Assembly: GCA_016285835.1 (NCBI GenBank) | Contig: JAEERM010000001.1 | Location: 1-64,000 of the forward strand | DNA from: Fibrobacter sp. | GTDB taxonomy: Bacteria; Fibrobacterota; Fibrobacteria; Fibrobacterales; Fibrobacteraceae | DNA: 64,000 nt | Direction of reading: 5' to 3' | In this document: positions 5,018-27,707 of the stretch, piece by piece | Layout: the number at the start of each line of letters is the position of its first letter | How positions within the stretch are numbered: the stretch's first letter is position 1 | Position numbers and translations under genes: made by a program | The notes under the pieces: model-generated | What the model was told of the DNA's origin: nothing | Seen by the model: the letters and a program-made list of their open reading frames with translations, nothing else | Database searches by the model: none

Positions 5018-8000
5018 TTGGTTAGGATGACTTTCTCTCGCTTCTTCAAAAATTGTGCAATTATTTTTTTGCTTTCGGCCTTGATGCCGAATGTGTTCGC
5101 GCAAGAACACGGCAAGGTTTTCCCGATAACGACGACTCCGGCTTCGTATACTCTCACGGATAACTCGTTTGTTGATGGTAATGCATCCAGCGGTGTTAGG
5201 CTTGTCCTTGTAGCTCCCTCTACTGGGGTGTTTAGGGTGACGTTTACGACGCCTTCTGGCGCCGATTATTATGTGTACAAGTGTCCTAGTGATGCGTATA
5301 CCTCTTGTGGATCTTACATTTTCGAAGTATGGGGAACAGGGAGTAGTAAGAGTACGACCATATCTGCTGCAAATGGCGATTCTGTTTTCTATATGGTGGG
5401 GCAGTATAGTTCATCTTATAATTCGCTCCCTATTGAAGTCAGCTATGAGAAATTGGTTACTTATTCTGTGAAAATTCATGGAAGAGATACGTCTGTTTTG
5501 AGCGGAAATTCTATTTCGATTAATGCTGCCGGGTTGACGGGGCCGAAGGAGGTTTTCGTAAAATGGAAAATTAATTCGGGTACTGGTTCTTTTAGCAACG
5601 CTTCGTCGTCTTCCACTTATTTCACGCCAACATCCGATGCGGAAATCGACATAGAAACAAAGGCTGTTTCGCTTTATGCGCTTACGGATAAGTACAAATC
5701 TTATGTCTACAATACCAATGGCTACGAAAAGGTGTCTTCGGCTTATGCTGTGAGAACTTATTTCGCGGCTACGGATCCGAGCTATTACGTGTTGTTCGTG
5801 CAATCGGTACACGACAACGATATTTTATTGTTTAATTCGGACAGTTCTTATTCAAGTTATTCCACCAAAAGATGTTATTCTGGTGTTTGTAGGTATACCT
5901 TTTATTCTGCTGCCGGTGCGAAAAATTATTTTGAGTTATGCCCATATTATTCGTCATATTCAAGCGATACTGTAAGTGCGAGGGTCGAAAAAACGGTCAA
6001 GATCAATTCGGAAACTACAGGCTTGGGCTATGTCTATATAGGGTCGTCTTCGTTAAGTTATGATTCCACCCATGTGGTGGGGGACACGGTCAGTATTTCT
6101 GCGGAAGCCTCTTCGGGGTACAAGTTCGACCACTGGGAAAAAGTTTCCGGTAAATGCTCGATTCTCGATACGACCGCTGTGTCTACGAAGGTCGTCCTTA
6201 AAGGGGATTGCCGCGTGGAAGCCGTATTTGTCGAGGGAACGGTTTATAAAATCACGAATAAAGCAAAGAGTTATTCTACCGCCAATAATTACTATTCTCA
6301 GTCGCCATACAATGGTGTACGGTTCATGTTCGTAGCTCCGGACGATGGTGCGTATGCAATCAGTTTCAGAGGTGCCGATACTACAGAATTGTATTCATAC
6401 ACAAGGTACTCCAATTCCCTATTCTCTTCGTATGATTGGTCCGTGAGTAGCGTTTCTACGAAGATAGATTCTGTATTCATGTCCAAAAACGATACGCTGT
6501 TCTATCTTGTAAATACTTATTCTGTTGCCGACTCTCTCAACATATTCTCGGTAAAGTACACTTCGATAACGTCTTACAAGGTTACCTTGACGAGTGCGTC
6601 AAAGCAGTGCTCCACATCGGTTAAGTCCGACCGCGTTGTTGGAGGAGCCCGTGCTACATATCATGGCTATTCTAATTCCGGTTACAGGCCGAATGGCTTT
6701 AAAATCAAGAGCGGAAAGGGTACTTTTGTTGACAATCTTCCGAATTATGCAACGATTATCGTGAAATCGGACCTCGAATTGGAACTCCAGTGCGGTGGTG
6801 CAAACTTGATTGAAATTACCACGAAGGAAAAATACCGCACGCCGAACAAGGATTTCTATGAAGTCGATTCCACATCGGGAATGCGTTATGTGTATATTGC
6901 GCCGACATCTTCGGCCTATGCAATCCGAGCGAAAACTAAGGTGAGCGGATCTTCCTATTTCTCTGGTTATTTTTATACCTATGGAGCGGATTCGACTTTT
7001 TATTCATATTCGAACTACCTTATAGTTAGCAATTCGAATCCGACACAAACATTTATGGTGACTCCGACTAAGGGAGAAAGTATCTATTTCTCTATGACTC
7101 CATACGGAAGCTCGTACTATGATGATTCTGTTGCCGTGTATGCCATCAAGGCTGCTATCGTAAATGTCGCGGGCAATACAAAGGCCGATACCATCCCCAT
7201 AGGGGATTCCCTTGCTATAAGTGCAATAGATGCTGTTGATACGGGCTACAGTTTTGTCAATTGGAAAATATCATCGGGAAGTGGCAAGTTCCTGGATTCC
7301 TCCAAGATGTCGACAATCTTTATACCTTCGTCGGATTCAGTAAATGTTACTATAAAGCAAAAGAAGGGACAAATTTACCAGTTGACAGACAAGTTCTCCG
7401 GTTTCACAACCTATGCCAACGGAAACAAGGTCCCACTTTCTGGAGCTATCCCGTATTACTATGGCGTGCGCACCTTCTATACGGCGAAGGATACTGGGGC
7501 TTACGTGCTGGTTACAGAGTCGAAAAAACCTTGGTATTATTATGACGTTCAGAGTGATTCTACATTCAGCACCTATTACACTGCGGATTACACATCCACT
7601 TCATCATCGACGAGAAATACGCTTAGGTATACATTCTACGTATCGGCAGAAAATACTTCCAATTACTTCTTGTTGAAAGCCAATGGTGATGCCTACATGA
7701 AGGATTCCATCTGGGCCAAGGTTGTAAAGATTGCCAAGATAACCTCGGATACTGTGGGTGGCGGTTATGTTCGTATGGCGAATAGCTCCTACGACGACTA
7801 TGATTATTCCCATATTCCTGGGGATACGATTGCGCTTCAAGCGTGGGCGAATTCTGACCAAAGATTTGACCACTGGAAAATGGTTTCTGGAAAGTGTACC
7901 GTTCTTGATTCTACCGATAGGTTCACAAAACTCGTCATCACGGGCGATTGCAAGGTTAGGGCTTATTTCAGGGATGGAATTATCTATCCGGTTACGGCAA

Positions 8001-11000
8001 CCCCAACTTCGTACACGACGGCGAAGGATTACTATGTGGGCACTCCGTCGGTGGGGGTCTATTTATCGTTCCAGGCTCCGAGTGCGGGTACGTATGCCTT
8101 TGTGACCTCTTGGGCCAACTCTAACGGCAGCTTGGCTTATTACAGGTCTACCGATAGTACATTTGGTAGCTCCGCCACGTATAACTCTTTCACGGGGACG
8201 TATGCTGATACGTTGGTGATGGATGTCGGAGACAAGGTGTACTTCAAGGTGCAGACAAACTATGCCTCAGATTCTATAGTCCCCTTCTGGATCAGTTATG
8301 CGACGTCGAAGTCGATTCTTACGGTGTCGGCGGATTCGAATGGTACCGCATCTCCTTCGCAATACAACCCGGCGTGGATTGGGCCGAAATATGTCGTCAA
8401 TGCTTCGGCGTATACTGGCTACCGTTTTGATACTTGGGAACTTGTTTCTGGTACGGCCTCCATCGACGATAAGAGGGCCCGGTCGACCTTTGTCGCAATA
8501 AAGAAACAGGCTGAGGTCAGGGCTCACTTCAAAAAAGGGTCGGTGCTGTCGCTTTCGAAAAAGAAGAAGACTTTCAACTTCCAGACGCATTACTATAGCG
8601 ATGCATCGGGCTCTGCCGTTTACTTTACCTGGACTCCGCCTGATACTTCTTGGTACATGGTCGAGATTGAATCTGCGGATGGCCTGGCTGCGAATTGGTA
8701 CGAGTTCGGAACTGATACTTCGTTCCTCTCCTCTACGGGTTCTTATTCCGTGACTCCCAAGGCGGTGAGCGGTAACTCTGCCGTGTTCCTGTTCCGGCCG
8801 ACGGATGGGGATCCTCTATACTGGGCTTTGGTTGATTCCGCTAACAACATTCGGGACAAAGATTTCTCGATAAAGATATCTGATCCTTATGTATTGACCG
8901 TTTCTTCGGAACCCAAGGGCCGTGTTGTTCCCATGGGCGAAGTAGCCCTGTTCCCGGGTACAGATACAGTGGTCAGTGCTGTTTCGTACGGTGGCTATGT
9001 CTTTGACAAGTGGGTCAGGATTTCCGGAAAGGTGACGATTGACGATTCGACGAGTACAAAGACCCGTGTCAAGCCGAATACCACGACTTGCGAAATCCAG
9101 GCGACGTATTCCATCGATCTTTCTACAGAACCTGTCTTGAAAATAACGGATTTGGATTTGAGTGGTTTCCCCGGAATTTGCGCTGGCGTTACCGTGAAGG
9201 ACAAGAATACCGACAAGTCTATTGCCGGTCTTGATTCGTCCGATTTCGTTCTTTTCCAGGACAACAAGTCTCTCCCCATGCAGGTGACGTCTATACAAGG
9301 TGTCAGCGGTGTTTCTGTGGCCATTGTCGTGGATGAAAGTGGCTCCATGCGCAACACCCGTATACAACAGGCTCAGGAATCTATAAGGAAGTATATAGAC
9401 GAAATGTCTCCCTTCGACAGGACGGCGATTATCGGTTTCTCGGGTGGATCCGAGACGACGATTCATCAGGCGATGACTTCGGATAAGAACTTGCTGTACC
9501 AGGCGGTCGATAGGTTAAAGGCCGATGGTCTCACAAATATTTGTACCGGTACATATAGGGGCTTGGAACAGATTGTGGGTGAAACAAACCCGACGGCAGT
9601 CATTGTGTTCTCCGATGGTCTTGTTGAAGGTGGCGAAATATACTACAAGGACGATGTCGTCAATTATGCGAAGGGCTTGAATACGGTCGTTCATTCTATT
9701 GCCATTGGTACTGATATCAGGGATCCTCTTGAAGCAATGGCGAATGAAACCGGCGGAACTTATACCTTCGCTCCTACGGCAGATCAGTTGGCCGCTATCT
9801 ATATCTCGATTAGGAATTCGGTCCAGGCGAAGTATACCATTTGCTTCCAGAGCCCGGATACTATCATGAATGGTGACGAACATGAAGTGATTATCAAGAC
9901 GAAGTTCCTGAACAAGACGGCGACTGATACCGCTTATTGGGATGAACGCTTCATGCCTCCTGTAATCAAGCTGACCAAGAACACCAAGAAACTTATTGGT
10001 GTAAAGCAGAAAGAAGGCGATTCCCTCGAAATCAAGGTCTATGTTTCGTCCGTGGATTCCCTCGCCTCGGTGATTGTGTACACGCGCGTGTCGTCCCCGA
10101 ACGCATCCGCAACTTACACGGCCCACCCGATGACTCATGTCAAGGACAGCCTTTGGAGTTACGTGGTGCCTGGCTATAACGCCATTGCCCCAGGTATCGA
10201 TTTCTACGTTATTGCGACGAACGTCTCTGGCTTGGTTGGAAAGTCACCGCAGGTGCCGACTCCGTCCAACGAGCCCTATACGATTCCGATTGGTGGGGAT
10301 GCTCCTGAAATTGAATTCATGTCTGTGAGCTGCGTAGACACTATTGGTGGCAAGGGCGAATTGATGTTCACCATCACGGATGACGATGGTATCTCCAAGG
10401 CGAGAATCTATTACAGAAGTGTGGGCTCGGTGCTCTTCACCGACAAGAAGATTAGCCGTGTCGACAAGAAGAGCAACGACTGGAGCGTTTTGCTGCCCGC
10501 ATCTGCATTCGATTCGGATGAACTCGAGTTCTATGTACGCGCCATCGACAAGAAGGGCGTCTCCGCACGCTGGGAAAAGTTCAGCAATACCTTCGTTGAA
10601 GCTTGCCGCGACAGCAATGCCATAGCGGCCGAAGTCAAGGATTCCATCTGGATCCGTAACGGCGAGAAGGACACGCTGAAGATTACCCGCCTGACGGAAA
10701 AGATTTCGCTCTCCCTCATAACGGAAGACTTCACGAGCAGGCGTGACTCGGTCACGGCGAGCCTGTCGTGCCTTGTCTCCGGCGACGTGGAAAGCAATAT
10801 TATGTTGATGGAAGTTCGCAGTGGTTACTACGAGACCAAGGAACTTATAGAGAAGAACGAATACGGCGTCAAGAAGAACGACGGCAAGATTTCGTGCGCC
10901 GCGACCGACACGCTGGTGGCCACCTATAAGGATCCGCTCTACGGCACCATTGCACGAGATTCCGTCGCTATCGGAGACGATGTTCCGCTGGTCTATCAGT

Positions 11001-12472
11001 TCATGGACTCGAAGTGCAAGGAAGATTTGGATTCTGTCCGGACCTCGACCTCGGCGGATTACTGCTTGAAGATTCAGGCCCCGAGCCCGTCGCTGTACAT
11101 CGCCGACACCTTGAAGTTGCTGCTGTTCACCGACCAGGGCGACACCATCCGCGTGGAAGCTATCGAAACGGATGACTACTCCAAGGAATACGTGTACAAG
11201 GGCAGCTTCTACTTCGTGGAAGATTCTGCGTCCCTCAAGGATTCGCTCCTGGATGCCGTCCTCGATTTGGACACGACGTTCAACCGCGTCGTCATCCAGG
11301 GTGGCACGACTTCGGACAAGTCGAAGCTCAGGAAGCGCGACTCGCTGGTTGTCTACACGAACTACGTGGCGGCAGACTTTGCCGAAATATACGACCTCGA
11401 TTTGGACGGCAAGGCGGATTCCATCCGCATCCATTTCAAGAAGCCTCTGAAAAAGAAGGTAGCGAGCATCGATACCGTGTACTGGAATGCGGCACACGGC
11501 CCCTGGACCAATGTTGAGTCAAGCAAGATTCGCATTACTGAAGATTCCTCGTGGGCGGAAGCTAGAGTCCGTAAGCCGTTCAAGTACGGCCTGACGGCAA
11601 TAGATACGGCAGCGCCGCCTTACCTGCGCGTGACCAAGACCAAGTCGGAATTCTCGCAGAAGACGATGCTGAGGGACATGATTGGCGCCGTGCCGGTGAA
11701 GGCCGTGAAGCGCCCCGGTCAGATTTCGATGGAGGAATATCTGGACGCCTCGGAAGACGTGGCCCCGGACACCCTGGTAATCACGATGTCGGAAGGAATC
11801 ACGAATACGGGCAAGAAAAACGCGTGGAAGGATTTGTTCCGCTATTCTAAGACCTGCAAGGACACCGTGTATAGCCCTGTCCGCTCGAAGGTCGATCCGA
11901 TTGTCGATTCTGCTGGACTTGTTTGGAAGTTTGTGCTTGCGGACTATGCCATCATGAAGGACAACTGCATCACGACGAACCCGAAGGCGACCTTCGTTGA
12001 TGCCGAGGGTAACTCCATGGGCCGCGGTGGCGTAGAGGTCGAAGGCCGCGACGAGACGGTCTACCTCTACGAAGTCTCTGCTGTTGAGCCGGTGCATGGC
12101 TCCAGCAAGAAGCACAAGAAGCAGAAATGGATTCCGCAGGGTGGCGATTCCTGGGAAGAAGTGCCGGACAGCCTGACGGTTGTCAAGATTGTGTCTGTGG
12201 CGCCTTACGAGGCGGACATCTACATCTACGACAACCTTGCCAACGTTGTGACGAACATGAAGCAGAAGTTCGGCTACAATGGCGAAATGGATTCGAAGAT
12301 CCGCGGTAACGACAAGAACCGTGCAAAAATTGGCTACCTGAGCTGGAACCACCGTTCCAACAAGGAGAGAAAAGTCGGCACTGGCGTCTATATCTGGCGC
12401 ATCGACTTCAAGTTCAAGGACGGCCACACCGAATACAGAATCCTGAAAACGGGCTATATGAGAAGAGAATAG
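5018..12472 (+). CDS. Giant secreted vWA-domain protein, tandem copy 1
   Basis: This 2,484-residue protein has a signal peptide ending NVFA at residue 28, then seven modules starting near residues 29, 219, 409, 596, 785, 988 and 1175. Each module joins a beta-sandwich-like unit (GVRFMFVAPDDGAYAISF) to an InlB/Flg_new-like repeat (GYKFDHWEKVSGKC). A linker (LDSSDFVLFQDNKSL) leads into a vWA domain with its metal site D1439-x-S1441-x-S1443 and a later FSDG. The C-terminal third contains a Ca-loop-like D2126-x-D2128-x-D2130-G and ends in a beta-segment (GTGVYIWRIDFKF, then GYMRRE) resembling type IX sorting tails. It is probably a surface adhesin; the ligand is unknown. The TTG start fits AAAGGGGG just upstream and matches the non-ATG starts of copies 2 and 3. 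Confidence 0.8.
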   Translation: MVRMTFSRFFKNCAIIFLLSALMPNVFAQEHGKVFPITTTPASYTLTDNSFVDGNASSGVRLVLVAPSTGVFRVTFTTPSGADYYVYKCPSDAYTSCGSYIFEVWGTGSSKSTTISAANGDSVFYMVGQYSSSYNSLPIEVSYEKLVTYSVKIHGRDTSVLSGNSISINAAGLTGPKEVFVKWKINSGTGSFSNASSSSTYFTPTSDAEIDIETKAVSLYALTDKYKSYVYNTNGYEKVSSAYAVRTYFAATDPSYYVLFVQSVHDNDILLFNSDSSYSSYSTKRCYSGVCRYTFYSAAGAKNYFELCPYYSSYSSDTVSARVEKTVKINSETTGLGYVYIGSSSLSYDSTHVVGDTVSISAEASSGYKFDHWEKVSGKCSILDTTAVSTKVVLKGDCRVEAVFVEGTVYKITNKAKSYSTANNYYSQSPYNGVRFMFVAPDDGAYAISFRGADTTELYSYTRYSNSLFSSYDWSVSSVSTKIDSVFMSKNDTLFYLVNTYSVADSLNIFSVKYTSITSYKVTLTSASKQCSTSVKSDRVVGGARATYHGYSNSGYRPNGFKIKSGKGTFVDNLPNYATIIVKSDLELELQCGGANLIEITTKEKYRTPNKDFYEVDSTSGMRYVYIAPTSSAYAIRAKTKVSGSSYFSGYFYTYGADSTFYSYSNYLIVSNSNPTQTFMVTPTKGESIYFSMTPYGSSYYDDSVAVYAIKAAIVNVAGNTKADTIPIGDSLAISAIDAVDTGYSFVNWKISSGSGKFLDSSKMSTIFIPSSDSVNVTIKQKKGQIYQLTDKFSGFTTYANGNKVPLSGAIPYYYGVRTFYTAKDTGAYVLVTESKKPWYYYDVQSDSTFSTYYTADYTSTSSSTRNTLRYTFYVSAENTSNYFLLKANGDAYMKDSIWAKVVKIAKITSDTVGGGYVRMANSSYDDYDYSHIPGDTIALQAWANSDQRFDHWKMVSGKCTVLDSTDRFTKLVITGDCKVRAYFRDGIIYPVTATPTSYTTAKDYYVGTPSVGVYLSFQAPSAGTYAFVTSWANSNGSLAYYRSTDSTFGSSATYNSFTGTYADTLVMDVGDKVYFKVQTNYASDSIVPFWISYATSKSILTVSADSNGTASPSQYNPAWIGPKYVVNASAYTGYRFDTWELVSGTASIDDKRARSTFVAIKKQAEVRAHFKKGSVLSLSKKKKTFNFQTHYYSDASGSAVYFTWTPPDTSWYMVEIESADGLAANWYEFGTDTSFLSSTGSYSVTPKAVSGNSAVFLFRPTDGDPLYWALVDSANNIRDKDFSIKISDPYVLTVSSEPKGRVVPMGEVALFPGTDTVVSAVSYGGYVFDKWVRISGKVTIDDSTSTKTRVKPNTTTCEIQATYSIDLSTEPVLKITDLDLSGFPGICAGVTVKDKNTDKSIAGLDSSDFVLFQDNKSLPMQVTSIQGVSGVSVAIVVDESGSMRNTRIQQAQESIRKYIDEMSPFDRTAIIGFSGGSETTIHQAMTSDKNLLYQAVDRLKADGLTNICTGTYRGLEQIVGETNPTAVIVFSDGLVEGGEIYYKDDVVNYAKGLNTVVHSIAIGTDIRDPLEAMANETGGTYTFAPTADQLAAIYISIRNSVQAKYTICFQSPDTIMNGDEHEVIIKTKFLNKTATDTAYWDERFMPPVIKLTKNTKKLIGVKQKEGDSLEIKVYVSSVDSLASVIVYTRVSSPNASATYTAHPMTHVKDSLWSYVVPGYNAIAPGIDFYVIATNVSGLVGKSPQVPTPSNEPYTIPIGGDAPEIEFMSVSCVDTIGGKGELMFTITDDDGISKARIYYRSVGSVLFTDKKISRVDKKSNDWSVLLPASAFDSDELEFYVRAIDKKGVSARWEKFSNTFVEACRDSNAIAAEVKDSIWIRNGEKDTLKITRLTEKISLSLITEDFTSRRDSVTASLSCLVSGDVESNIMLMEVRSGYYETKELIEKNEYGVKKNDGKISCAATDTLVATYKDPLYGTIARDSVAIGDDVPLVYQFMDSKCKEDLDSVRTSTSADYCLKIQAPSPSLYIADTLKLLLFTDQGDTIRVEAIETDDYSKEYVYKGSFYFVEDSASLKDSLLDAVLDLDTTFNRVVIQGGTTSDKSKLRKRDSLVVYTNYVAADFAEIYDLDLDGKADSIRIHFKKPLKKKVASIDTVYWNAAHGPWTNVESSKIRITEDSSWAEARVRKPFKYGLTAIDTAAPPYLRVTKTKSEFSQKTMLRDMIGAVPVKAVKRPGQISMEEYLDASEDVAPDTLVITMSEGITNTGKKNAWKDLFRYSKTCKDTVYSPVRSKVDPIVDSAGLVWKFVLADYAIMKDNCITTNPKATFVDAEGNSMGRGGVEVEGRDETVYLYEVSAVEPVHGSSKKHKKQKWIPQGGDSWEEVPDSLTVVKIVSVAPYEADIYIYDNLANVVTNMKQKFGYNGEMDSKIRGNDKNRAKIGYLSWNHRSNKERKVGTGVYIWRIDFKFKDGHTEYRILKTGYMRRE

Positions 12473-12511
12473 TCGCTAATAGCCGTTTTTTAAGTAAAAT
12501 AAACACTTTGT

Positions 12512-12574: not shown

Positions 12575-12600
12575 AACTTTCCCTAAAAAAATAGGACTTT

Positions 12601-15600
12601 GTGGTTAGGATGGAATATTCACGTCTACTTAAACACTGTACTTTAATTTTGTTTTTCGCTGCTCTGATGCACAGTGCTTTCGCTCAGCAGCATGGCGTTC
12701 TGCCGATAACGACGACTGAAACTTCCTACACGCTCGTAGACAACTCCTATACCGATGGCGACACGACAACGGGTGTCCGGCTGTCGTTTGAAGCCCCAAA
12801 GACGGGCCTTTTCAAGGTGACGTTTACTCCGGCTAACAGCTCTTACTATTTATATAAGTGCCCAGACAACACGTTTACTTCGTGCGGTTCCATTTTAAGG
12901 GTCCTTTCCGGTACGTCGGCTTGGACTGAATCTTTTTTTGCTGGCAATGGACAATCCGTTTATTATTTGATAAAAGAATATAATTCGACGTATTCTACGC
13001 TGCCTTTTTCTGTTGTTTATGAGGAACTGGCTTCTTACGTCGTGACGTTTAATGCCAAGGATACCGCAGTCGCTGTCGGCAATAAACTTGCTGTAACTGC
13101 CTCTGGCTTGCTTGGCCCGGACGAGGCTTTTATGGGGTGGAAGGTTGAACCGGATGACGCTGGAACTTTTGCCAATTCCCTTTTGATGACTACGACATTT
13201 ACCCCGGTTGCCGATGCCGAAATTTCCATCGACAAGAAAACAGTCCAGAGCTATCCGCTCACGAGTACTCCTTCAAGTTTTGTCTACGATGCTGATGGGT
13301 ACGAAAATGCCTCTTCGGGTTATGCGGTTCGCACTTATTTCAGTGCTACGGATTCCGGTGACTACGTCTTGATAGTTAAGAAAGCCAACTCGAACACCAT
13401 TTACAGGTATGGAACGGATGTTTCGTCATCGAACCCTGCTTCGCAGGGCTGTGGTACGATTGTTTGCAAAATACCCTTTGTATCCAATGCCGGAGAAACA
13501 AACTATTTCGAACTGGTTCAAACGGCCACGGCGTATATGAGTGATACGGTCACAGTGAGCGTCGAAAGGGCTGTCGGGGTTTATGCGGATACGGTGGGTT
13601 CCGGTATCGTCCGAGTGGGTGGAAACCTAAACTACAATCTCAGCTATGTTGCCGGGGATACGGTTCAAATTATCGCGACGGATAATGCGGGCTCGAAGTT
13701 CAGCCATTGGGAAAAAATTTCCGGTAATTGTAGCATTATTGATTCTACGAGTACAGTCACGAATGTGGCTATTAGTACGGAATGCCATGTGAGGGCCACG
13801 TTTGTCCCTGGAGTCATTTATTCGGTGACGACCAAAGAGAAAAATTATACGATGGCCAAAAATTACTACTCCCGGAATCCGAGCGAAGGCGTGCGTTTCA
13901 TGTTTATCGCTCCGAACGATGGCTCCTTTGCAGTTCGATTTGCGTTGAAGGATTCCGCAAAGTCCTTTATCGTCACTCAGTATCCGACATCTGCGTTCAA
14001 TAAGACTTCATGGACCGGTACATTTTTGGAAACCAAGACGGATTCGCTCTACTTGAGCAAGGGCGATACGGTATTCTACATTGTAAGGCCCACCGTCAAT
14101 GCGGATTCGGTCCTTGAGTTCTCTGCGGTTTATTCTAAGCTCAAGTCCTATACAGTGACTCTTACGAGTGCATCGCCACAGTGCTCTACATCGGTCAGCA
14201 GCGAAAGCGTGCCTGCGGGGCTAACCGTGACATACTTGGGCTATTCCGTTGCGGGATACAGGCCTGCTGGTTTCAAGATTACGAAAGGTAATGGGACGAT
14301 TACTCAAGACTATCCGAGTTCCATAACCCTCAAGGTCAATAGTGACCTCAAGCTTAAACTGCGGTGCGATTCCGCAAACTTGATTGACATTACCACGAAG
14401 GAAAAGTATTACTCGGCAAACAAGGACTTTTACGACATTGGTCCTTCTGCCGGGCTACGTTTCCGCTACGTTGCTCCGAATACGGCCCTTTATCTCATCC
14501 GTGCCAAGACCAAGCAGGCGAATGGTTCTTACTTTAATGGCTACTATTATAACTATGGATTGGATCCCCTCTTCACTACTTACAACTATGGCCTAGATTC
14601 TGTGCTGGCCAAGGCTCCGTATAGTTTGGGTCTTGGAAACAGAGATCAGATTCAAAACTATGTCGTGGATCCGGCAAAAAAAGGTGAAGAACACTTCTTC
14701 CGAATTACTCCGTCGAATGTCAACTACTTTGACGATTCGATTGCCGTGTTTGCGGTCCGTGCGTCTATCGTAAATGTCGAGGGGAAGACTAAACTCGATA
14801 CCATTGCCTATGGGGATTCTCTCCCTGTGACAACGACTATAGATACCGGCTATGCCTTTGTTTGTTGGAAACTGGATTATGGCAAGGGCAAGTTTAAGGA
14901 TTCCTCCTTGATTTCCACCATATTTGTCCCGTCGTCCGATTCGGCGAAGGTCGTTGTGAAAAGAAGGAAGGGAAAGGTTTATTCGCTGACGGATAAGTTC
15001 TCCGAATTCACGTACTTTGGAAACGGCACGCAGTTGACAGGGCGTTATGGAATCAGGGCCGTGCATACGGCGAAGAGCGCCGGTTTGTATATGCTCGTGA
15101 TGCAGTCGGCCAAGCCCTGGACCCATGTGGACTTCTCGGATGATTCAACCTTCACTGATGGCTCGCTTTCTTCTCATATCATTACATCTTATAAAGGGAA
15201 AAGTGAGGTGCGTGTCCTTTTTGATGTGGCTTCTGCGAATACTTCCCGCTATTACCTGTTCATGCCCTATGACAATATGTACTTGAAGGATTCTATCCAG
15301 GTCAAGGTCGTAAAGACTGCCAAGTTGCGGTCGGATACCTTGGGCGGAGGCTATGTCCGCGTGAACGGTAGCACTACGGCTGACTTCGACTCTACTCATA
15401 TTGCCGGGGATACGCTCACGATTGCTGCAACCGCGAATCCAGATCAGAGATTTGATCACTGGGAGAAAGCTTCCGGGAAATGCACCTTTATCGATTCCAC
15501 CCAGAGGACGACGCAGGTTGTCTTGGGCGGTGATTGCAAGGTCCGCGCCGTGTTCCGTTCGGGAACGTTCTTCCCGATTACCGCGACTCCGACGGCATAT

Positions 15601-18600
15601 ACGGCAGAAGAACATTATTACGTGGAAAACCCGACAAAGGGTGTTAGGTTCAAGTTCGTCGCTCCGGATACGGGTGCCTACGTCTTTGTCACGTCGTGGG
15701 CAAATATCAGGGACTTTTCCTATCGCCGGTCCTTCGATAGCACGTTTGCTTCTTCCCAAGTTTATCGAAGCTCGTCGGCTGTGATAGCGGATTCGATGTG
15801 GCTCGCAAAGGATTCCACCGTGTACGTTATGGTTGTTCCGGTTTATGCCGTAGATACTTCAAGAACGTTCTGGATAAGCTATGCGACGTCGAGGGCTTCT
15901 CTTACCTTGACAGCGGACACCAACGGTACCGTGTCGCCTGTTGTGTACGATCCGGCATGGATTGGGCCGAAATATCCAATCAAGGCTGTTGCCGATTCTG
16001 GCTACCGTTTCGATTCCTGGGATTTGATTTCTGGTTCGGCGACAATAGACGACAAGAACGCGCCTTTCACCATGGCTTCGGTAAAGAAACAGTCCGGGAT
16101 TATAGCCCATTTCAAGAAAGGCTCTATCCATTCGCTGTCGAAATCGAAAAAGACTTTCAACTACGTTACGCATTACTATAGCGATAGAACCGGCAATACG
16201 GTGTACTTTTCGTGGACCCCTCCTGATACGGCGTGGTACATGATTCATATTGAATCGGCGGATGGGATGTCTGCGAAATGGTATGAATTCGGAACAGATA
16301 CGTCGTTCCTTTCGGTGGGTGTTGATTCTGTTGTGCCTTCTCCGGTGCAGGGAACCTCTTCGATTTTCTTGTTCAGGGGTGAACCGAAAAAGAAACTCTA
16401 CTGGGCGCTGGTTGATTCCCTCAATACGGAAATTTTGGACAAGGATTTCACAATTCAGATTATAACCCCGTATGTGCTGACGGTGACTTCGGATGCGAAG
16501 GGCCGTGTCAACCCGATTGGCAATGTGGGTGTTTTCCCAGGTTTGGATACAGCGATAAGCGTCATTCCCTATGGTGGTTATGTCTTTGACAAGTGGGTCA
16601 AGGTTTCCGGCAAAATGACAATCAGCGATTCGACAAGCCAAAACATACGAGTCAAACCGATTACGTCCTCTTGCGAAATCATGGCGACCTATACGCTTGA
16701 TCTTTCGGCGGAGCCGGAAGTGAATATTACAAATCTGGATTTGGGCAGTTTCCCGGGAATATGCGTTGACGTAACTGTGAAGGACAAGAATACGGACAGG
16801 TCTATCGCCGGTCTTGATTCTTCCGACTTCGTGCTGTTCCAAGACAAGAAGGGGCTGCCTCTCCAGGTGTCGTCCGTAGAGAACACCACAGGCGTCTCGG
16901 TGGCCATTGTCGTGGACGAGAGCGGTTCTATGGGCTGGGAATCGTATGGCCAGATTCGTATAAATCAGGCGAAGGAATCTATACGGCAGTTCATTTACGA
17001 AATGTCTCAGTACGACAGGGCGGCAGTTGTCGGTTTTGTCGGTGGCGGCTCGACGGTTATTCACCAGGCGATGACCTCGGACAAGAATTTGTTGCTTGCG
17101 GCGGTTGATCAGTTGCAAGCTAGCGGCGGTACAAATATTCGTGATGGTGCCTATCGCGGCTTGGAGCAGATTGTGGGCGAAACGAATCCGACCGCGGTCA
17201 TCGTGTTCTCGGATGGTGCCGACGGTGGCAACAATGTCACTTCGCAGGATGTCATCGATTATGCAAAGAGCCTGAATACAGTGGTCCACTCGGTTGCCGT
17301 GGGTGAAAATAACTTGGATCCACTCAAGACTATGTCGGATGCTACGGGCGGTTCTTATACCTTTGCTCCTTCGGCAGACCAGCTGGCGGCCATCTACATA
17401 TCGATCAGGAACAATATCCAGTCGAAGTACACCATCTGCTACGAATCTCCGGATACGACAATTGATGGGGACGAACACCAGGTCATCGTCAAGACGAAGT
17501 TCCTCAACAAGACGGCTTCCGATACGGCGTACTGGAACGAGGGCGCGATGCCTCCCGTGATTACGCTGACCAAGGACACCAAGAAACTGATTGGCGTGAA
17601 ACAGCGCGAGGGTGATTCCATCACCATTAGCGTATATGTGACATCCCAGGATTCCATTGCCTCGGTGACGCTCTATTCGCGCACATCCTCCCCGAATACC
17701 TCCGCGACTTATACGGCTCACCCGATGGTCCATGTGAAGGACAGCTTGTGGAAATTTGTGGTGACGGACTCGAATGTTGTATACCCAGGTCTCGATTTCT
17801 ACGTCATCGCAACGAACGCGTCCGGCATGGTCGGAAAGTCTCCCCAGGTTCCGACTCCTTCCAATGAACCGTACACGATTCCGATAGGCAACGAGGCCCC
17901 CAAGGTCAAGTATAAAGAAGTTGATTGTGTCGATACGCTTGAAGGGGAGGGTTTGTTCGTTTTCGAAATCAAGGATGCCGACGGTATTGCCAGTGCAAAA
18001 CTGTATTACAGGTCTGTTGGCTCGGTCGTCTTCAAAGAGAAGAAGATGTCCCGCGAATCCAAGAAGGGCAACGTCTGGAGCGTTTCTATCCAACCGTCGG
18101 TAATGAGGCCGGATGGAGTCGAGTTCTATGTACGCGCTATCGACAACAAGGGCGTGTCTGTCCGCTGGGAAACGTTCTCGAACAATTCCGTCCTTGCCTG
18201 TAGGGATACCAGCTTGGCTGCCGAGGACGTGCCGGACAGTATCTGGATAAAGAATGGCGAAAAGGATGACAAGGAAATTACACGTTTGACGGGCAAGATT
18301 AAGCTCGCTGTCATAACAGAAAATTTCTCGATGAATACGGATACGATTACCGCAAGCCTTGCTTGCCTTGTCTCCGGCGACGTGGAAAGCAACTTGAAAT
18401 TGGTGGAAGTGAGTAATGGTTACTATGAATCGAAAAAGGCCTTGGAGAAGAACGAATACGGCGTCAAGAAGAACGACGGGAAGATTTCGTGCGCTGCGGC
18501 CGATACGATGGTTGCCACCTACAAGGATCCGCTATACGGCTCCACTGTTCGCGATACGGTAATCTTCGCGGACGATGTCAAGACCGAATACAGGTTCATG

Positions 18601-20061
18601 GAGGTAAATTGCAAGACGGATTTGGACTCCGTGCAAACTTCGACCTCGGCGAAATTCTGCCTCAAGATTCAGGCGCCCAGCCCGTCTCTGTATGTCGCCG
18701 ATACGCTGAAGTTGACGTTGTTTACAGATCAGGGAGACTCAATTCGCGTGAATGTTGTCGAAACGGGTGTTTATTCCAAGCAGTATATTTACAAGGGAAA
18801 TTTCTACTTCGTGGAAGATTCCGCGTCTTTGGAAGATTCCCACTTGGATGCCGTACTTAACCTGGATACGACATACAACCGCGTGGTCATCCAGGGGGGT
18901 GTCAAGTCGGACAAGTCCAAGCTCAAGAAGCGTGACTCGCTCGTTGTCTATACGAAATATGCTCCCGCCGATATCGCCGAAATCTATGACAGGGATTTGG
19001 ACGGCAGGGCGGATTCTGTCCGCATCCACTTCAAGAAGGCGCTGAAGAAGAAAATTGCAAGCATCGATACGGTGTTCTGGAATGTCGCTCAGGGAGCCTG
19101 GACCGATGTCGATTCGAAGAAAATCCGCATTGTCGGGGATTCCACTTGGGTCGAGGCCCGCGTTCGCAAGGCGTTCAAGTACGGCTTGACTGCCCCGGAT
19201 ACCTCGGCGCCGCCATACCTGCGTGTGACCAAGGAAGAGTCCGAATTCTCGCAGAAGGCGTTGCTTGTTGACAGGGTGGGTGCTGTTCCGGTGAAGGCGG
19301 TAAAGCGCCCCGGCCAGATTTCGATGGAGGAATATCTGGACGCTTCGGAAGACGTGGCCCCAGATACCCTGGTTATCACGATGTCGGAATGTATCAAGAA
19401 TACGGGCAAGAAAACCGCGTGGAAGGACCTGTTCCGCTATTCGAAGACCTGCGAGGACACTGTTTACAGTCCAATCCGTTCAAAGTTCGATCCGATTGTC
19501 GATTCAACGGGAACGGTCTGGAAGTTTGTGCTTGCGGATTACGCCATCATGAAGGAAAACTGCATTACGACGAACCCGAAGGCGACCTTTGTCGACGCCG
19601 AGGGCAACTCCATGGGCCGCGGTGGCGTGGAGGTCGAAGGCCGCGACGAGACGGTCTACCTCTACGAAGTCGCAGCGCTCCAGCCGGTGCATGGTATTGG
19701 CAAGCAGGCGAAGTGGATTCCGCAGGGTGGCGATTCCTGGGAAGAAGTGCCGGACAGCTTGACGGTCATCAAGATTGCCTCTGTTGCCCCGTACGAGGCG
19801 AACATCTATATCTACGACAATTTGGCTAACGTTGTCACGAAAATGAAGCAGAAATTCGGCTATGAGGGCGAGATGGAATCAAAGATTCGCGGTAACGACA
19901 AGAATCGCGCAAAAATCGGCTACTTGAGCTGGAACCACCGCTCCGACAAGGATAGAAAGGTCGGCACCGGTGTCTATATCTGGCGCATCGACTTCAAGTT
20001 CAAGGATGGTCACACTGAATACAGAATCCTGAAGACAGGGTATATGAGAAGGGACGAATAA
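12601..20061 (+). CDS. Giant secreted vWA-domain protein, tandem copy 2
   Basis: This 2,486-residue paralogue of the preceding gene has the same order: signal peptide (ending SAFA near residue 28), seven double beta-modules to about residue 1367, pre-vWA linker, vWA domain with D1439-E-S-G-S (followed here by a six-residue-longer loop, MGWESYGQIRIN), Ca-loop-like DRDLDGRAD and the terminal GTGVYIWRIDFKF segment ending GYMRRDE. It starts at GTG 12601 with TAGGA just upstream, then V-R-M as in copy 1. It follows copy 1 by 128 bp containing a terminator. No promoter like those of copies 1 and 3 is visible, so it may depend on read-through or on a TATATT at 12563. It is the most diverged of the three in the C-terminal third. 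Confidence 0.8.
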   Translation: MVRMEYSRLLKHCTLILFFAALMHSAFAQQHGVLPITTTETSYTLVDNSYTDGDTTTGVRLSFEAPKTGLFKVTFTPANSSYYLYKCPDNTFTSCGSILRVLSGTSAWTESFFAGNGQSVYYLIKEYNSTYSTLPFSVVYEELASYVVTFNAKDTAVAVGNKLAVTASGLLGPDEAFMGWKVEPDDAGTFANSLLMTTTFTPVADAEISIDKKTVQSYPLTSTPSSFVYDADGYENASSGYAVRTYFSATDSGDYVLIVKKANSNTIYRYGTDVSSSNPASQGCGTIVCKIPFVSNAGETNYFELVQTATAYMSDTVTVSVERAVGVYADTVGSGIVRVGGNLNYNLSYVAGDTVQIIATDNAGSKFSHWEKISGNCSIIDSTSTVTNVAISTECHVRATFVPGVIYSVTTKEKNYTMAKNYYSRNPSEGVRFMFIAPNDGSFAVRFALKDSAKSFIVTQYPTSAFNKTSWTGTFLETKTDSLYLSKGDTVFYIVRPTVNADSVLEFSAVYSKLKSYTVTLTSASPQCSTSVSSESVPAGLTVTYLGYSVAGYRPAGFKITKGNGTITQDYPSSITLKVNSDLKLKLRCDSANLIDITTKEKYYSANKDFYDIGPSAGLRFRYVAPNTALYLIRAKTKQANGSYFNGYYYNYGLDPLFTTYNYGLDSVLAKAPYSLGLGNRDQIQNYVVDPAKKGEEHFFRITPSNVNYFDDSIAVFAVRASIVNVEGKTKLDTIAYGDSLPVTTTIDTGYAFVCWKLDYGKGKFKDSSLISTIFVPSSDSAKVVVKRRKGKVYSLTDKFSEFTYFGNGTQLTGRYGIRAVHTAKSAGLYMLVMQSAKPWTHVDFSDDSTFTDGSLSSHIITSYKGKSEVRVLFDVASANTSRYYLFMPYDNMYLKDSIQVKVVKTAKLRSDTLGGGYVRVNGSTTADFDSTHIAGDTLTIAATANPDQRFDHWEKASGKCTFIDSTQRTTQVVLGGDCKVRAVFRSGTFFPITATPTAYTAEEHYYVENPTKGVRFKFVAPDTGAYVFVTSWANIRDFSYRRSFDSTFASSQVYRSSSAVIADSMWLAKDSTVYVMVVPVYAVDTSRTFWISYATSRASLTLTADTNGTVSPVVYDPAWIGPKYPIKAVADSGYRFDSWDLISGSATIDDKNAPFTMASVKKQSGIIAHFKKGSIHSLSKSKKTFNYVTHYYSDRTGNTVYFSWTPPDTAWYMIHIESADGMSAKWYEFGTDTSFLSVGVDSVVPSPVQGTSSIFLFRGEPKKKLYWALVDSLNTEILDKDFTIQIITPYVLTVTSDAKGRVNPIGNVGVFPGLDTAISVIPYGGYVFDKWVKVSGKMTISDSTSQNIRVKPITSSCEIMATYTLDLSAEPEVNITNLDLGSFPGICVDVTVKDKNTDRSIAGLDSSDFVLFQDKKGLPLQVSSVENTTGVSVAIVVDESGSMGWESYGQIRINQAKESIRQFIYEMSQYDRAAVVGFVGGGSTVIHQAMTSDKNLLLAAVDQLQASGGTNIRDGAYRGLEQIVGETNPTAVIVFSDGADGGNNVTSQDVIDYAKSLNTVVHSVAVGENNLDPLKTMSDATGGSYTFAPSADQLAAIYISIRNNIQSKYTICYESPDTTIDGDEHQVIVKTKFLNKTASDTAYWNEGAMPPVITLTKDTKKLIGVKQREGDSITISVYVTSQDSIASVTLYSRTSSPNTSATYTAHPMVHVKDSLWKFVVTDSNVVYPGLDFYVIATNASGMVGKSPQVPTPSNEPYTIPIGNEAPKVKYKEVDCVDTLEGEGLFVFEIKDADGIASAKLYYRSVGSVVFKEKKMSRESKKGNVWSVSIQPSVMRPDGVEFYVRAIDNKGVSVRWETFSNNSVLACRDTSLAAEDVPDSIWIKNGEKDDKEITRLTGKIKLAVITENFSMNTDTITASLACLVSGDVESNLKLVEVSNGYYESKKALEKNEYGVKKNDGKISCAAADTMVATYKDPLYGSTVRDTVIFADDVKTEYRFMEVNCKTDLDSVQTSTSAKFCLKIQAPSPSLYVADTLKLTLFTDQGDSIRVNVVETGVYSKQYIYKGNFYFVEDSASLEDSHLDAVLNLDTTYNRVVIQGGVKSDKSKLKKRDSLVVYTKYAPADIAEIYDRDLDGRADSVRIHFKKALKKKIASIDTVFWNVAQGAWTDVDSKKIRIVGDSTWVEARVRKAFKYGLTAPDTSAPPYLRVTKEESEFSQKALLVDRVGAVPVKAVKRPGQISMEEYLDASEDVAPDTLVITMSECIKNTGKKTAWKDLFRYSKTCEDTVYSPIRSKFDPIVDSTGTVWKFVLADYAIMKENCITTNPKATFVDAEGNSMGRGGVEVEGRDETVYLYEVAALQPVHGIGKQAKWIPQGGDSWEEVPDSLTVIKIASVAPYEANIYIYDNLANVVTKMKQKFGYEGEMESKIRGNDKNRAKIGYLSWNHRSDKDRKVGTGVYIWRIDFKFKDGHTEYRILKTGYMRRDE

Positions 20062-20068
20062 GACTTTT

Positions 20069-20124: not shown

Positions 20125-20197
20125 AAGGGTTATCTCCAGAAATAAAAAAAGTTATCTAAATATTTACAAACCCGATGCCAAAGATAAATGCCAAGGG

Positions 20198-20225
20198 TTG
20201 AAAGCAAATTCAAATTTTTTAAATT
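20198..20225 (+). promoter_or_regulatory. Promoter-like sequence of giant copy 3 (TTGAAA-16-TAAATT)
   Basis: It matches the TTGAAA and TAAATT hexamers before giant copy 1, and the surrounding AT-rich sequence is also similar. It ends 33 bp before the GTG start. Confidence 0.45.
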
Positions 20226-20258
20226 TTGTGAAAAAACTAAATCATAGATGAGGTCCTC

Positions 20259-23200
20259 GTGGTTTGGATGAAATTTTCTCGTTTACTCAAACAGTTCACG
20301 TTCATTCTTTTTGCAACTGCTTTGATGCATGGCGCATTTGCCGCTGTGGAACATGGAAAAGTGTTCCCGATAACGACGACTCCGACTTCGTATTCGCTCG
20401 ATGATAATTCGTTTGTTGATGGCGATGCTTCTAGTGGCGTTCTGCTTGCCTTTGTGGCTCCCAAAACAGGGGCGTTTGATGTGACATTTGAATTGCCCTC
20501 GAGCGGCTATTACTATGTGGATAAGTGCCCTAGTAGCACATATACTTCTTGTTCTAACATGTTTCTTGTATATGGAGCAGGTATATATGCAAGTATGGAT
20601 ACAATCGTATCTGCTTCAAAGGGTGATTCCGTTTTTTTTATGGTGCGTCAGTATAGTTCAACTTATAATACTTACGCTATTAATGTTAGCTATGAGGAAG
20701 TTCCTTCCTTTGTCGTGACGTTCAACGGGAAAGACACTGCGGTTGTGAACGGTGGTTCTATCCTGGTAAATGCTTCGACGTTGTTGAAAGCAAACGAAGT
20801 CTTTGTGTCGTGGAAACTCGTTTCGGGGTCTGGAAATTTTACGAATGCCTCGGCAGTCTCTACCTACTTTACTCCCAAATCCAATGCAAAAATTGACGTT
20901 GAGAAAAAAACGGTCCAGGTGAAAACGCTCAGTAACAAGAATTCCTCTTTTGTCTATAATGTCGATGGTTACGAAAAAGGAACTTCGGGTTATGCTGTGC
21001 GAACGTCGTACAAGGCCTCGGATGCTGACAACTACGTCTTGATTGTCCAGTCAGATTATAGTAGTTATGTCTACCGTTATGGTTCCGATAGTACATTTTC
21101 CAGTAGCGTTACCGTACTGAACTGCTATTCCGTCTGCAAAGTGCCCTTTAAATCGGCAGCGGGGGCGAAGAACTATTTTGAACTGTTTCAGAATTCCAGT
21201 TATTATGTTGGTGAAACTGTAAATGTCCATGTCGAAAAAGCCGCCGAGATTCATGTGGATACAGTCGGATCTGGCTATGCCCGTGTGGGTGGAACTACGT
21301 ATAGTTTTGATTCCTCCCATGTGGCGGGTGATACGATAGACATTCAAGCAGTTGCCAACAGCGGATCCCGGTTTCAATATTGGGAAAAGGATTCAGGCAA
21401 GTGCAAGGTTCTGGATTCTACAAAAGCCATTTCAAAAGTGGTGTTAAATGGAGATTGCCACCTTAAGGCCGTGTTTGGCGCGGGAACCGTATATGCGATT
21501 ACGACCAAGGCGAAGGAATATACCACTGCCGATCATTACTTTGAAGTCTCGGCAGCCTATGGTGCACGCTTCATGTTTGTCGCCCCGAGTGATGGTGCCT
21601 ATGCGGTCGAATTTAAATCAAAAGATTCTACGGACAAACTATCTATTTTCCGTTATTCGACATCGGAATTTTATTATCAGGATTGGAATGAGGTAACCAA
21701 TTTAAAGGTGGATGCGTTTTACTTGAACAAGAACGATACGGTATTCTATCTTGTAAGGAACAGTTACTACTATGATTCACTTGACGTGTTCACCGTGAAG
21801 TATTCTTCGGTTGCGTCTTATGAGGTTACCTTGACGAGTGCATCGGCGCAGTGTTCCACAGCGGTAAAGAGCGATAATGTGGTCGAGGGGGCCAGAGTAA
21901 CGTTTTTGGGTTATTCCAATCCCGGCTACAGACCGGCAGGCTTTAAAGTCAAGAAGGGCTCGGCGACTTTTGTCAAAGACCTCCCGAATTCCGCCACGCT
22001 TACAGTGAACTCGGATGTCACTTTGGAACTCCAGTGCGAATCTTCAAACTTGATTGAAATTACCACGAAGGACACCTACCGCTCGCCGGATAACGATTTT
22101 TATGAAGGGAACGCTTCAGTGGGAATGCGTTACGTGTATGTGGCTCCGACAACATCTACATACGCTATTCGCGCAAAGACGAAGATGGCTGGGTCTTCCT
22201 ATTTTAATGGTTATTTTTACGACTATAAAGGTGATTCGACGTTTTCCTCTGCTCAGAGCTCCTACGTTATTTCTAACACTTACATGTCACGGACTGTTTT
22301 TGTGACCCCGTCTAGCAAGGGGGACAAATTTTATTTCAGCGTCATCCCTTCGGGTACGGAATACTATGATGATTCCGTTGCCGTGTATGCGATTAAGGTC
22401 TCTGTCGTGAGTGTCGAGGGTAAGACGAGTCCCGATATTGTTCCCGTGGGGGATGCTCTTTCGATTGATGCGACTTCTATTGTTAATGAGGGCGAAACTT
22501 TTGTCAGTTGGAAAATCGTTTCGGGCAGTGGCAAGTTTGAGGATTCCACCAAGATAGCTACGACCTTTACTCCCTCGTCGGATTCGGTGAGGATTGCCGT
22601 AAACAAGAAGAATGGGAAAATCTATCCGTTGACAGACAAGTTCTCTGGCTTCACGACCTATGCCAACGGGAGCAAAACTCCAACTTTTTATGGGGTGCGC
22701 ACTGTTTATAACGCAGCAACAGCGGGAACGTATGTGCTGGTATCGGAATCGACTATCCCCTGGTATGTCTTTATATATAATGATTCTACGTTTGCTTTTT
22801 ATAGCGATTACTCTTATAATACAAGTGCCAGTACGGCGTCTGCAAGAAATACAATTAGATATTCATTTACCGTATCGACAGCGGACACGTCCATATATTT
22901 CTTGCTGCGTCCATATTACACCGATGCAAATATGAAGGATTCCATTTGGGCCAAGGTTGTAAAGACGGCAAAGATATTCTCGGATACTGTCGGCGGTGGC
23001 TATGTCCGCATAGCGAATACCGGCAATCCTTATGATTCAACCCATATTGCCGGGGATACAGTTGCACTTTTTGCGCAGGCGAATACTGACCAAAAATTTG
23101 ATCGTTGGAAAATGGTTTCTGGGTCGTGTACAGTGCTTGATTCTACCGAGAGGAACACAAAGCTCGTCATCACGGGTGATTGTAGGGTAAGGGCTTATTT

Positions 23201-26200
23201 CAAGGATGGCGTTATTTATTCGATTACAGATACTCCAAAGTCGTACACAACGGCAAAAGATTACTATGTGAATGCTCCGTCGCAGGGTGTCTATTTCTCG
23301 TTCCAGGCACCGAGTGCGGGCACATACGCCATTGTGACCTCCTGGGCGGGGGCCTACAGCTACTTGACGTATTACAGGTTCCCCAACAGCACTTTTTCTA
23401 CTTATGATAGTTACGGAACATCCACTGGGACGCATGTAGATACGCTGACGATGGATGCCGGTGACAAGGTGTTTGTCAAGGTGCTGGCGTCCTATGCCGC
23501 AGATTCTTTAACCCCCTTCTGGATTAGTTATTCGACGGCAAAGTCGATTCTTACAGTGTCGGCGGATTCGAATGGTACTGCATCTCCTTCTCAATACAAC
23601 CCTGCATGGGTCGGAGCGAAATATGCAATCAATGCTAATGCGTTTGTCGGCTTCCGTTTCGATTCCTGGGAACTGATTTCCGGTACGGCATCGATTGACG
23701 ACAAGAGGGCCAAATCGACTTTGATTTCGATAAAGAAGCAATCTGAGGTTCGGGCCCACTTCAAAAAGGGATCGGTGATGCCGATTTCGAAAACAAAGAA
23801 GACGTTCAACTACCAGACGCATTATTATAGTGATGCTTCGGGCTCTGCCGTGTACTTTACCTGGACACCTCCCGATACATCTTGGTACATCATCCAGATT
23901 GAATCGACGGATGGAATGGCCGCAAAGTGGTACGATTTTGGAACAGACACAACGTTCTTGTCCTCTACGGGGTATTATTCCCAAACTCCTGCCGTCGTGA
24001 GTGGAACGTCAACCCAATTCCTTTTCCGCGTGAAGGAACTAAAACAGCCGCTATACTGGGGCTTGATTGATGCCTCTAACAAAATTTCGGACAAGAACTT
24101 TACGATTCAGATTGTGAATGCGAACGTATTGACCGTGTCTTCGGAGGGGAAGGGCCATGTGAATCCAAGTGGTAGGATTGGGCTGTTCCCGGGCGTGGAT
24201 ACTCTGGTCCAGGCCGCTCCTTATGGTGGTTATGTATTTGATAAGTGGGTTGTTGTTTCGGGGAAAGTGAAAATCGAAGACCCAACGAGCGCAAAGACCC
24301 GTGTCAAGCCGAATTCTGCGAACTGCGAAATCAAGGCGACCTACAAACTTGACCTTGCGACGGAACCCGAATTGGAAATAAGGAGCCTGGATTTAGGCAG
24401 TTTCCCGGGAATTTGCGCCGATGTTGCTGTGTCGGACAAGAACACCGGTAATCCTATTGCCGGCCTCGATTCATCTGATTTTGTCCTTTACCAGGACGGC
24501 AAGGCGTTACCCTTCCAGGTGACATCCGTTAATGGAATGGGGGCTGTGTCCGTTGTGCTTGTCGTGGATGAAAGTGGTTCCATGATGGCCGGTAATCGAT
24601 TGCCTGGAGCCCGTCAATCGTTAATCGAATTTATTGAAGGCAAGTCTCCGAACGAGAGAATTGCCATTGTCGGCTTTGGTAACGATGTGGGTGTGCGCCA
24701 GGCAATGACTTCGGACAGGGAACCTTTGCTGGAAGCGGCGAGAAATATCTATGCATCTGGTAATACCTTCATTAATGAGGGTACACTTTTGGGCCTTGAC
24801 CAACTTGTAGACGAACCCTATAAGCGTGTCGCGATTATTTTCTCGGATGGTATTGGTGCCGGAAGTACACCTACGCCGACGGTTATCGATAGGGCTATCG
24901 AGGTGGGAGCGACGATTTACTCCATCGGTATCGAGGATGCTGGCCGAGATACTTATCCGCTCAAAGACTTGGCCGAGGCGACGGGTGGAACTTATACTTA
25001 TGCGCCTACATCCGATATGCTCGGTGGTATTTACTCGTCCATTCGTTCTGAAATTACGAGCAGCCAGTATACTATTTGCTACCAGAGTCCGGATACCATT
25101 ATGAATGGCGATACCCATGAGGTGGTCATCAAGACGAAGTTTATCAACAAGTCTACTTCCGATACGGCTTACTGGAGCGAGAACGATATGCCTCCTGTGG
25201 TCAAGTTGACCAATAACACCAAGAAGTTGGTGGGCTCTAAGCAGAAAGAAGGTGATTCCCTCGAAATCAAGGTCTATGTCTCGTCCGTGGATTCCATTGC
25301 CTCGGTGGTGGTGTACACGCGTGTGTCGTCCCCGAATGCCTCCGCGAGCTATACATCGCATAAGATGACCCATGTCAAGGACAGCCTCTGGAGCTACGTG
25401 GTGCCTGGCTACAACGCCCTCGCTCCGGGTATCGATTTCTACGTCGTTGCGACAAGTGCCTCCGGCTTGATTGGAAAGAATCCGCAGGTTCCGGTTCCGT
25501 CCAATGAACCCTACACGATTCCGATTGACAACTTAGCTCCGAAAATCGAATACATGACCGCGCAATGTGTGGATACTACTGGCGGCAAGGGCGAACTGAC
25601 ATTCACCATCACGGATGCCGACGGCATCTCCAGTGCAAAGCTCTATTACAAAAGGCCAAATGCGGTAGTCTTCTCGCAAAAGGAAATGTCCCGTACTAGC
25701 AAGAAGAGCGACGACTGGAGCGTTTCCTTGACCGCTTTTGAAATAGGGGAAGAACTCGAGTTCTACGTGCGCGCCATCGACAAGAAGGGCGTCTCCGCGC
25801 GTTGGGAAAAGTTCAGCAACACGTTTACTGGGGCTTGTTCCGATAGTGAACTCGTTATTGCCGATGTCAAGGATACCATCTGGATCCTGAATGGTGAAAA
25901 GGACACGCTGAAGATTACCCGCCTGACAGACAAGATTTCGCTTGCTCTCGTGACGGAAGACTTTACGAGCAAGAAGGACACGGTTACGGCGAGCTTGTCG
26001 TGCCTTGTCTCCGGCGACGTGGAAGACAAGATAAAACTGGTGGAAGTTCGCAGCGGCTACTACAAGACCAAGGATCCTATAGAGAAGAACGAATACGGCG
26101 TCAAGAAGAACGACGGCAAGATTTCGTGCGCTGCGTCTGACACGTTGGTGGCCACCTATAAGGATCCTCTTTATAATACGAAGACTCGTGATACCGTCGT

Positions 26201-27707: not shown

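Follow-up and report, generated by a model that had tools for sequence, protein, structure and literature searches.

What three adjacent giant genes in the genome of a rumen Fibrobacter encode, and why their products are almost equal in length, is the question raised by this locus. Among the cellulose degraders of herbivore guts, Fibrobacter takes a leading place and relies on contact with its substrate; its surface adhesins are poorly defined. The window analyzed here is a stretch of 64,000 nucleotides in contig C173 of assembly G000, which comprises 3.5 Mb in 212 contigs at 86% completeness. The three adjacent open reading frames described in the initial annotation are real and contain no internal stops. 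Their products are probably surface adhesins that are exported by the type IX secretion system (T9SS), tethered at the C-terminus, and diversified in the head by cassette recombination. The genes are as follows.

5018–12472, plus strand: giant vWA protein 1 (P0001), 2484 codons, likely start ATG at 5027
12601–20061, plus strand: giant vWA protein 2 (P0002), 2486 codons
20259–27707, plus strand: giant vWA protein 3 (P0003), 2482 codons

An ATG common to all three genes lies 3 codons inside the listed TTG or GTG starts and is the more natural start; with it, each protein becomes 3 residues shorter. The order of domains is the same in each protein: a signal peptide, seven modules, a pre-vWA domain (preV), the vWA domain, four Ig-like domains (I1–I4), C1, C2, and a tail. 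The signal peptides were seen on all three proteins, by eye only (..ALMPNVFA before QEH, and equivalents). The domains of protein 1 and the vWA domains of the other two are located as follows.

5018–5101, plus strand: signal peptide of protein 1, by eye, predicted cleavage after ..NVFA
5117–9118, plus strand: stalk of protein 1, seven M+F modules, residues 34–1367, from profiles and, for the last three modules, the AF2 model
9128–9310, plus strand: preV, pre-vWA Ig-like domain of protein 1, residues 1371–1431
9311–9835, plus strand: vWA of protein 1, residues 1432–1606, MIDAS residues D1439, S1441, S1443, T1506, and D1533
9956–11371, plus strand: Ig-like domains I1–I4 of protein 1, residues 1647–2118
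11372–12085, plus strand: C1–C2 domains of protein 1 with the DxDxDGxAD motif, residues 2119–2356
12164–12469, plus strand: terminal Ig-like tail of protein 1, residues 2383–2484, common to fibro-slime proteins
16894–17430, plus strand: vWA of protein 2
24546–25070, plus strand: vWA of protein 3

Each module of ~190 residues comprised a β-sandwich of ~110 residues (M) and a Flg_new_2/InlB-like repeat of ~75 residues (F). The seven-fold repetition was borne out by leave-one-out profiles, which recovered all 14 pieces; the module halves scored 19–64 bits each, and none of 500 self-shuffles reached its own score. Flg_new_2 (PF18998) exceeded the Pfam gathering score in all three proteins (74–100 bits, best E 7e-29), with 4–5 stretches per protein found by Pfam and seven by the family profile. 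The M β-sandwich of protein 1 had no significant match in Pfam, and the M module of one distant relative matched PPC at E 0.007, below the cut-off. C1, C2, and the tail (~100 residues) formed a C-terminal block of ~365 residues. A sequence search against solved structures returned nothing for the C-terminal half. AlphaFold, supplied with family alignments, gave confident models with a mean pLDDT of 85.8 from modules 5–7 through the vWA and 83.8 from I1 through the tail. Among the Ca-loop-like motifs proposed earlier, the DxDxDGxAD motif at about residue 2126 had key positions that were invariant in the family and represents a putative Ca site, judged by sequence.

The vWA domain was matched by Pfam in all three proteins (PF00092; 51.7, 47.2, and 44.3 bits in proteins 1, 2, and 3 against a gathering cut-off of 23.8; E about 1e-11 to 1e-13). 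Its metal site, DxSxS..T..D, was complete in the trio, as the initial annotation had read it for DxSxS, and all five residues were kept in 68 of 72 vWA domains of the family. All but one of the metal residues were lost in heads L103 (genome G069) and L113 (G052), and the threonine was replaced by glutamate in heads L101 and L102 (G056 and G096). The predicted fold matched BatB, ITIH1, Mfa5, ANTXR2, and integrin I domains with Z about 20–23 and rmsd 1.9–2.7.

Around this conserved site, the loops on the MIDAS face were more variable than those on the opposite face (2.01 vs. 1.29 bits of entropy; permutation p 0.003), a p-value that is indicative because the loop boundaries were placed by hand from the predicted secondary structure of the model. 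The difference held in subsets (p 0.003–0.006), including one confined to the G000 paralogues (p 0.004). The dN/dS of the vWA was raised but below 1 in the closest orthologue pair, in which classical positive selection (dN/dS > 1) was not seen. A literature search for von Willebrand adhesins evolving under diversifying selection found none. These loops bear on a structural role, in which the giants would be envelope or mechanosensing proteins and the vWA would make intramolecular or envelope contacts with no external ligand. The vWA lies mid-chain with Ig domains on either side, and vWA domains often act in protein complexes, but hypervariable MIDAS-face loops and the head replacement described below are unexpected of a conserved internal contact; such a role appears highly improbable.

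The trio belongs to a large, poorly described paralogous family. Strong vWA matches (E < 1e-12) occurred in 32 of 80 Fibrobacter genomes, and fragmented drafts, probably MAGs, were the source of many family sequences. G000 contained at least 15 vWA heads, mostly in tandem arrays, and several contigs of this assembly ended inside arrays of a short class. This class, of ~1580 residues with the order F-(M-F)x3, vWA, I1, I2, C1, C2, and tail, accounted for most of the G000 heads. A congeneric relative in Fibrobacter sp. isolate RGIG1550 (a MAG from goat abomasum) was 66% identical over the whole protein. Protein 2 was the orthologue of the second copy in G029 (~90% identical).

The near-equal length of the three proteins had been taken as a sign of selection on overall reach. 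This explanation failed at the level of the genus: relatives with intact C-termini ranged from 1232 to 3145 aa, a more than two-fold spread, and contained 0–9 M modules and 0–6 copies of I3. Close syntenic relatives of the trio measured 2480–2490 aa. The equal length of the trio therefore reflects recent common descent. The architecture had also been considered undescribed, and the literature search likewise found no account of the exact layout. The paralogous family, the swapping of heads, and the adjoining barrel gene had all been overlooked in the initial annotation.

The replacement of heads was seen when close orthologues were compared along their length. In G093 and G094, a 2375-aa gene was 97–100% identical at the nucleotide level along most of its length, and identity outside the gene was 94–97%. 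Identity fell from about codon 1170 to 1830; at codons of about 1200–1500 it was 46–77% (third positions 32–60%) and reached its minimum in the vWA (46–67%, third positions 32–50%). Near-saturated third positions within a near-identical gene exceed what in-place point mutation can produce, which indicated that the block was replaced. A mix-up of paralogues during assembly is unlikely, since no further strong family gene was detected in either genome. Between G056 and G033, identity was 35% (amino acid) in the vWA, 52% in the adjacent preV, and 63–97% in the remaining domains. The reverse direction was found between C165 of G000 and C28 of G038, in which a near-identical head block (codons about 390–950 including the vWA, 95–100% nucleotide identity) lay within more diverged genes (about 71–85% elsewhere). 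Heads appear to be exchanged by recombination, with the stalk, tail, and linked barrel conserved.

Across close pairs, which were non-independent, strongly diverged windows amounted to 10.1% in M modules, 9.2% in the vWA, and 0–5% in other domains; the share of the M modules came chiefly from the first M of the short class. This most N-terminal M module (residues about 100–215) formed a second hot spot of divergence.

Exchange was also recorded within the trio, at one stretch.

10952–11788, plus strand: recent gene conversion stretch, protein 1 vs. protein 3, residues about 1980–2260

Here the C-terminal stretches of proteins 1 and 3 were 97–100% identical in amino acids over much of their length, with low synonymous divergence, the product of recent gene conversion. 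The vWA of protein 2 was ~87% identical to that of its orthologue, against 98% for the adjacent domains of the same orthologue. In protein 3, the first two thirds of the vWA shared 34–41% identity with the heads of proteins 1 and 2, and the flanking domains mostly shared 65–85%. The nearest relative of this vWA was in G054 (49%), outside the syntenic group, and it was the only domain of protein 3 for which this was the case. A foreign origin was not proven by its placement in the tree, which was non-significant (AU p = 0.52); therefore, the vWA of protein 3 may represent either fast divergence or an unsampled donor.

Highly diverged head alleles inside near-identical genes, tandem arrays with gene conversion, and a second hot spot in an N-terminal module that is likely exposed as well would all be compatible with a surface layer under antigenic or receptor-escape variation, in which the head varies through exposure to phages, protozoa, or host antibodies and the arrays serve as a conversion reservoir. 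However, escape alone would not require the near-invariance of five metal residues, and we regard it as an unlikely cause. An adhesin, in turn, would be expected to keep its MIDAS, vary the loops around it, and have its head replaced by recombination; these observations strengthened the adhesin reading. The fibre-like surface adhesin inferred in the initial annotation thus survived in its main part (a secreted, fibre-like, modular protein with a vWA that looks functional and metal-dependent by sequence) and lost the part concerning selection on total reach. The position of the vWA, mid-chain and not at the tip, counts against it. On the whole, an adhesin function of the giant proteins is likely.

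How such proteins might reach the surface was considered from the tail. A likeness to a type IX sorting tail had been proposed earlier; the predicted fold resembles the C-terminal domains of PorZ and PorU, but the tail is not of the TIGR04183 kind. When two trio tails were searched with the type A model (TIGR04183), nothing matched up to E 10, and comparison of the tail profile with that of Fibrobacter TIGR04183 tails gave a probability of 12%, no better than the 9% of an M-module control. For type B, TIGR04131 was unmatched up to E 10, and CHU_C (E 0.05–0.06) fell under the cut-off. The PorU tail model matched the trio tails at a sub-threshold E of 0.007–0.014. Model residues 740–876 aligned over 92 residues with PorZ (Z 8.5, rmsd 3.1) and over 103 with PorU (Z 8.3, rmsd 3.1), values of Z that unrelated Ig folds equalled.

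The T9SS translocon protein SprA was found above its cut-off in G000 and was encoded in four relatives too. A PorU-like sortase in G000 reached E 2e-103, under its own cut-off. At G000:C136:10965-18223 there were two tandem PorU-like sortase genes of about 1380 aa each, and the three relatives searched had one. The search for GldL gave no match, and its controls were likewise unmatched. Use of T9SS has been proposed for the cellulases of F. succinogenes (PMC6851124). The tail profile also matched the C-termini of fibro-slime proteins (L166, L167, L168, and L170) at E 1e-10 to 1e-13, and this common tail suggests that major Fibrobacter surface proteins may form one sorting class.

Fibro-slime proteins have been reported as cellulose-binding surface adherence proteins (PMC3079729), and genes for GH9 and CBM9 proteins lay near the trio. 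Both points would suit an ordinary adhesin for cellulose or plant fibre, whose sequence differences arose by drift and whose heads were not exchanged adaptively. However, drift does not account for a block with third positions near saturation inside a gene that is otherwise 97–100% identical, and most genes downstream of the trio were present at only some family loci; this plainer reading is quite unlikely. The GH9 protein (window 38979–45287; 2102 aa) had CelD_N and fn3-type domains, and its C-terminal segment was of another kind. A tandem of three genes at 28640–30620 encoded small proteins, secreted or in the membrane, of which two were close paralogues; syntenic loci of relatives had 5–7 copies. 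Three copies of a 103-bp unit, with an inverted repeat visible within the unit, occurred at 30768–31079, and an 18-bp unit was repeated ~16 times at 56363–56643.

On the other side of the trio there was a gene of a different kind.

3951–4928, minus strand: partner gene, predicted outer-membrane β-barrel of 325 aa, divergent from the trio with a gap of about 90 bp

At 39 loci a homologue of this barrel adjoined a family gene, with the two never on the same strand and never more than 183 bp apart. Long-class genes mostly had the barrel gene at their 5′ end in divergent orientation, short-class genes mostly at their 3′ end in convergent orientation, and some single short-class genes had none beside them. 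Other neighbours conserved at long-class loci were sought, and most proved common only to close relatives. The groups of the barrel tree followed the flank tree of the giants, and the barrels of G093 and G094 were nearly identical despite the differing heads. The barrel protein of the window had an acidic, Pro-rich linker and a Lys-rich C-terminus, an extension found in about half of the long-class cases. OMP_b-brl gave weak matches in 4 of 38 barrel homologues, and TIGR03519, the model for PorP/SprF, was unmatched up to E 10 (G000 and G029). About 20 homologues (L126–L145) sat elsewhere without a giant, one of them adjoining an NPCBM-domain protein of ~860 aa.

In myxobacteria, TraA with the barrel protein TraB recognises matching partners on sister cells. 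By analogy, the giants could serve in kin recognition, their polymorphic heads binding matching partners on sister cells, and the conserved stalk and tail and the adjoining outer-membrane-barrel gene are in keeping with this. However, the 15 or more different heads in G000 weaken the notion of a single self label, and kin recognition is very unlikely.

We therefore return to adhesins with exchangeable heads, for which the following scheme may be proposed. Each giant protein would be exported by Sec and would probably cross the outer membrane via the type IX (SprA) translocon, with the C-terminal Ig-like tail as signal; the adjoining barrel would probably be devoted to shuttling or tethering the giant, in the way that PorP/SprF serves type B cargo. 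The M/F modules would make up an elongated rod, and a ligand would be bound by the vWA head via a divalent metal. Homologous recombination, both among paralogues and across species, would replace the head (the last F, preV, vWA, I1, and I2), and the stalk, tail, and barrel would remain together. With heads replaced on a constant stalk, tail, and barrel, we propose that the cell thereby varies what is bound. A further step is more tentative and seems to us somewhat less than an even chance: that the tandem arrays are a pool of vWA heads moved between paralogues and species onto a stalk-tail-barrel chassis, which would have a third kind of T9SS tail and its own non-PorP barrel. The swapped metal-binding heads offer a natural panel for asking what the cells bind, whether fibre type, microbes, protozoa, or host, and also whether phage or niche is behind the change of heads.

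Several known systems share parts of this architecture. The search of other Fibrobacterota proposed earlier recovered the core of the layout in giants of G125, G128, and G132, from another lineage of the phylum, which had the same M/F, vWA, and I1 core (E to 5e-197) but no barrel homologue in the stretches examined. The tail was absent in three of six giants of these genomes. At the C-termini of L171, L172, and L176 (G125, G132, and G128, respectively), a dockerin-like duplicated motif, recognised by eye and not reported as dockerin by Pfam at E 0.01, replaces the tail, and the ends of these distant relatives possibly represent a swapping of anchors. The acidobacterial vWFA proteins of TIGR03436 aligned with ~245 residues of the preV and vWA region of the trio, but this match covered neither the M/F stalk nor the C-terminal block. 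The trio scored 64.3, 74.5, and 70.0 bits, all under the curated cut-off of 81.25 bits, and was not assigned to TIGR03436.

The logic of a metal-site adhesin is shared with the vWA tip adhesins of pili, such as Mfa5 of Porphyromonas gingivalis and PilB of Streptococcus sanguinis (PMC7835359; PMC8179133), and Mfa5 resembled the trio vWA in fold (Z 22.3, rmsd 2.0). In Mfa5 and PilB, however, the vWA is at the tip of a pilus, whereas in the trio it is mid-chain in a single giant polypeptide; no pilin genes were recognised adjoining the trio. The fibro-slime surface proteins (TIGR02148) are, like the trio, large Fibrobacter proteins of a paralogous family with a homologous C-terminal tail of ~100 residues. 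Unlike the trio, those examined had no vWA or M/F module match, and the fibro-slime domain was absent from the trio among matches up to E 0.1.

The nearest parallel to the giants with their barrel lies in Flavobacterium, where type B cargo such as SprB requires a linked PorP/SprF shuttle (PMC12618676; PMC9143113). Both systems combine a giant surface adhesin and a C-terminal signal domain (in the trio a probable adhesin and a putative signal domain), a linked small-barrel gene, and an encoded SprA (PMC9143113; PMC12618676). They differ in that neither the trio tail nor its partner is matched by the respective model, TIGR04131 or TIGR03519, and in that PorP/SprF genes lie directly downstream on the same strand, whereas the barrel gene of the giants is on the opposite strand. 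The comparison suggests that the barrel beside the giants may follow the SprB–SprF logic by means of parts that are either unrelated or strongly diverged, which would make the giants and their barrel a candidate T9SS cargo-barrel pair outside the type A and type B classes.
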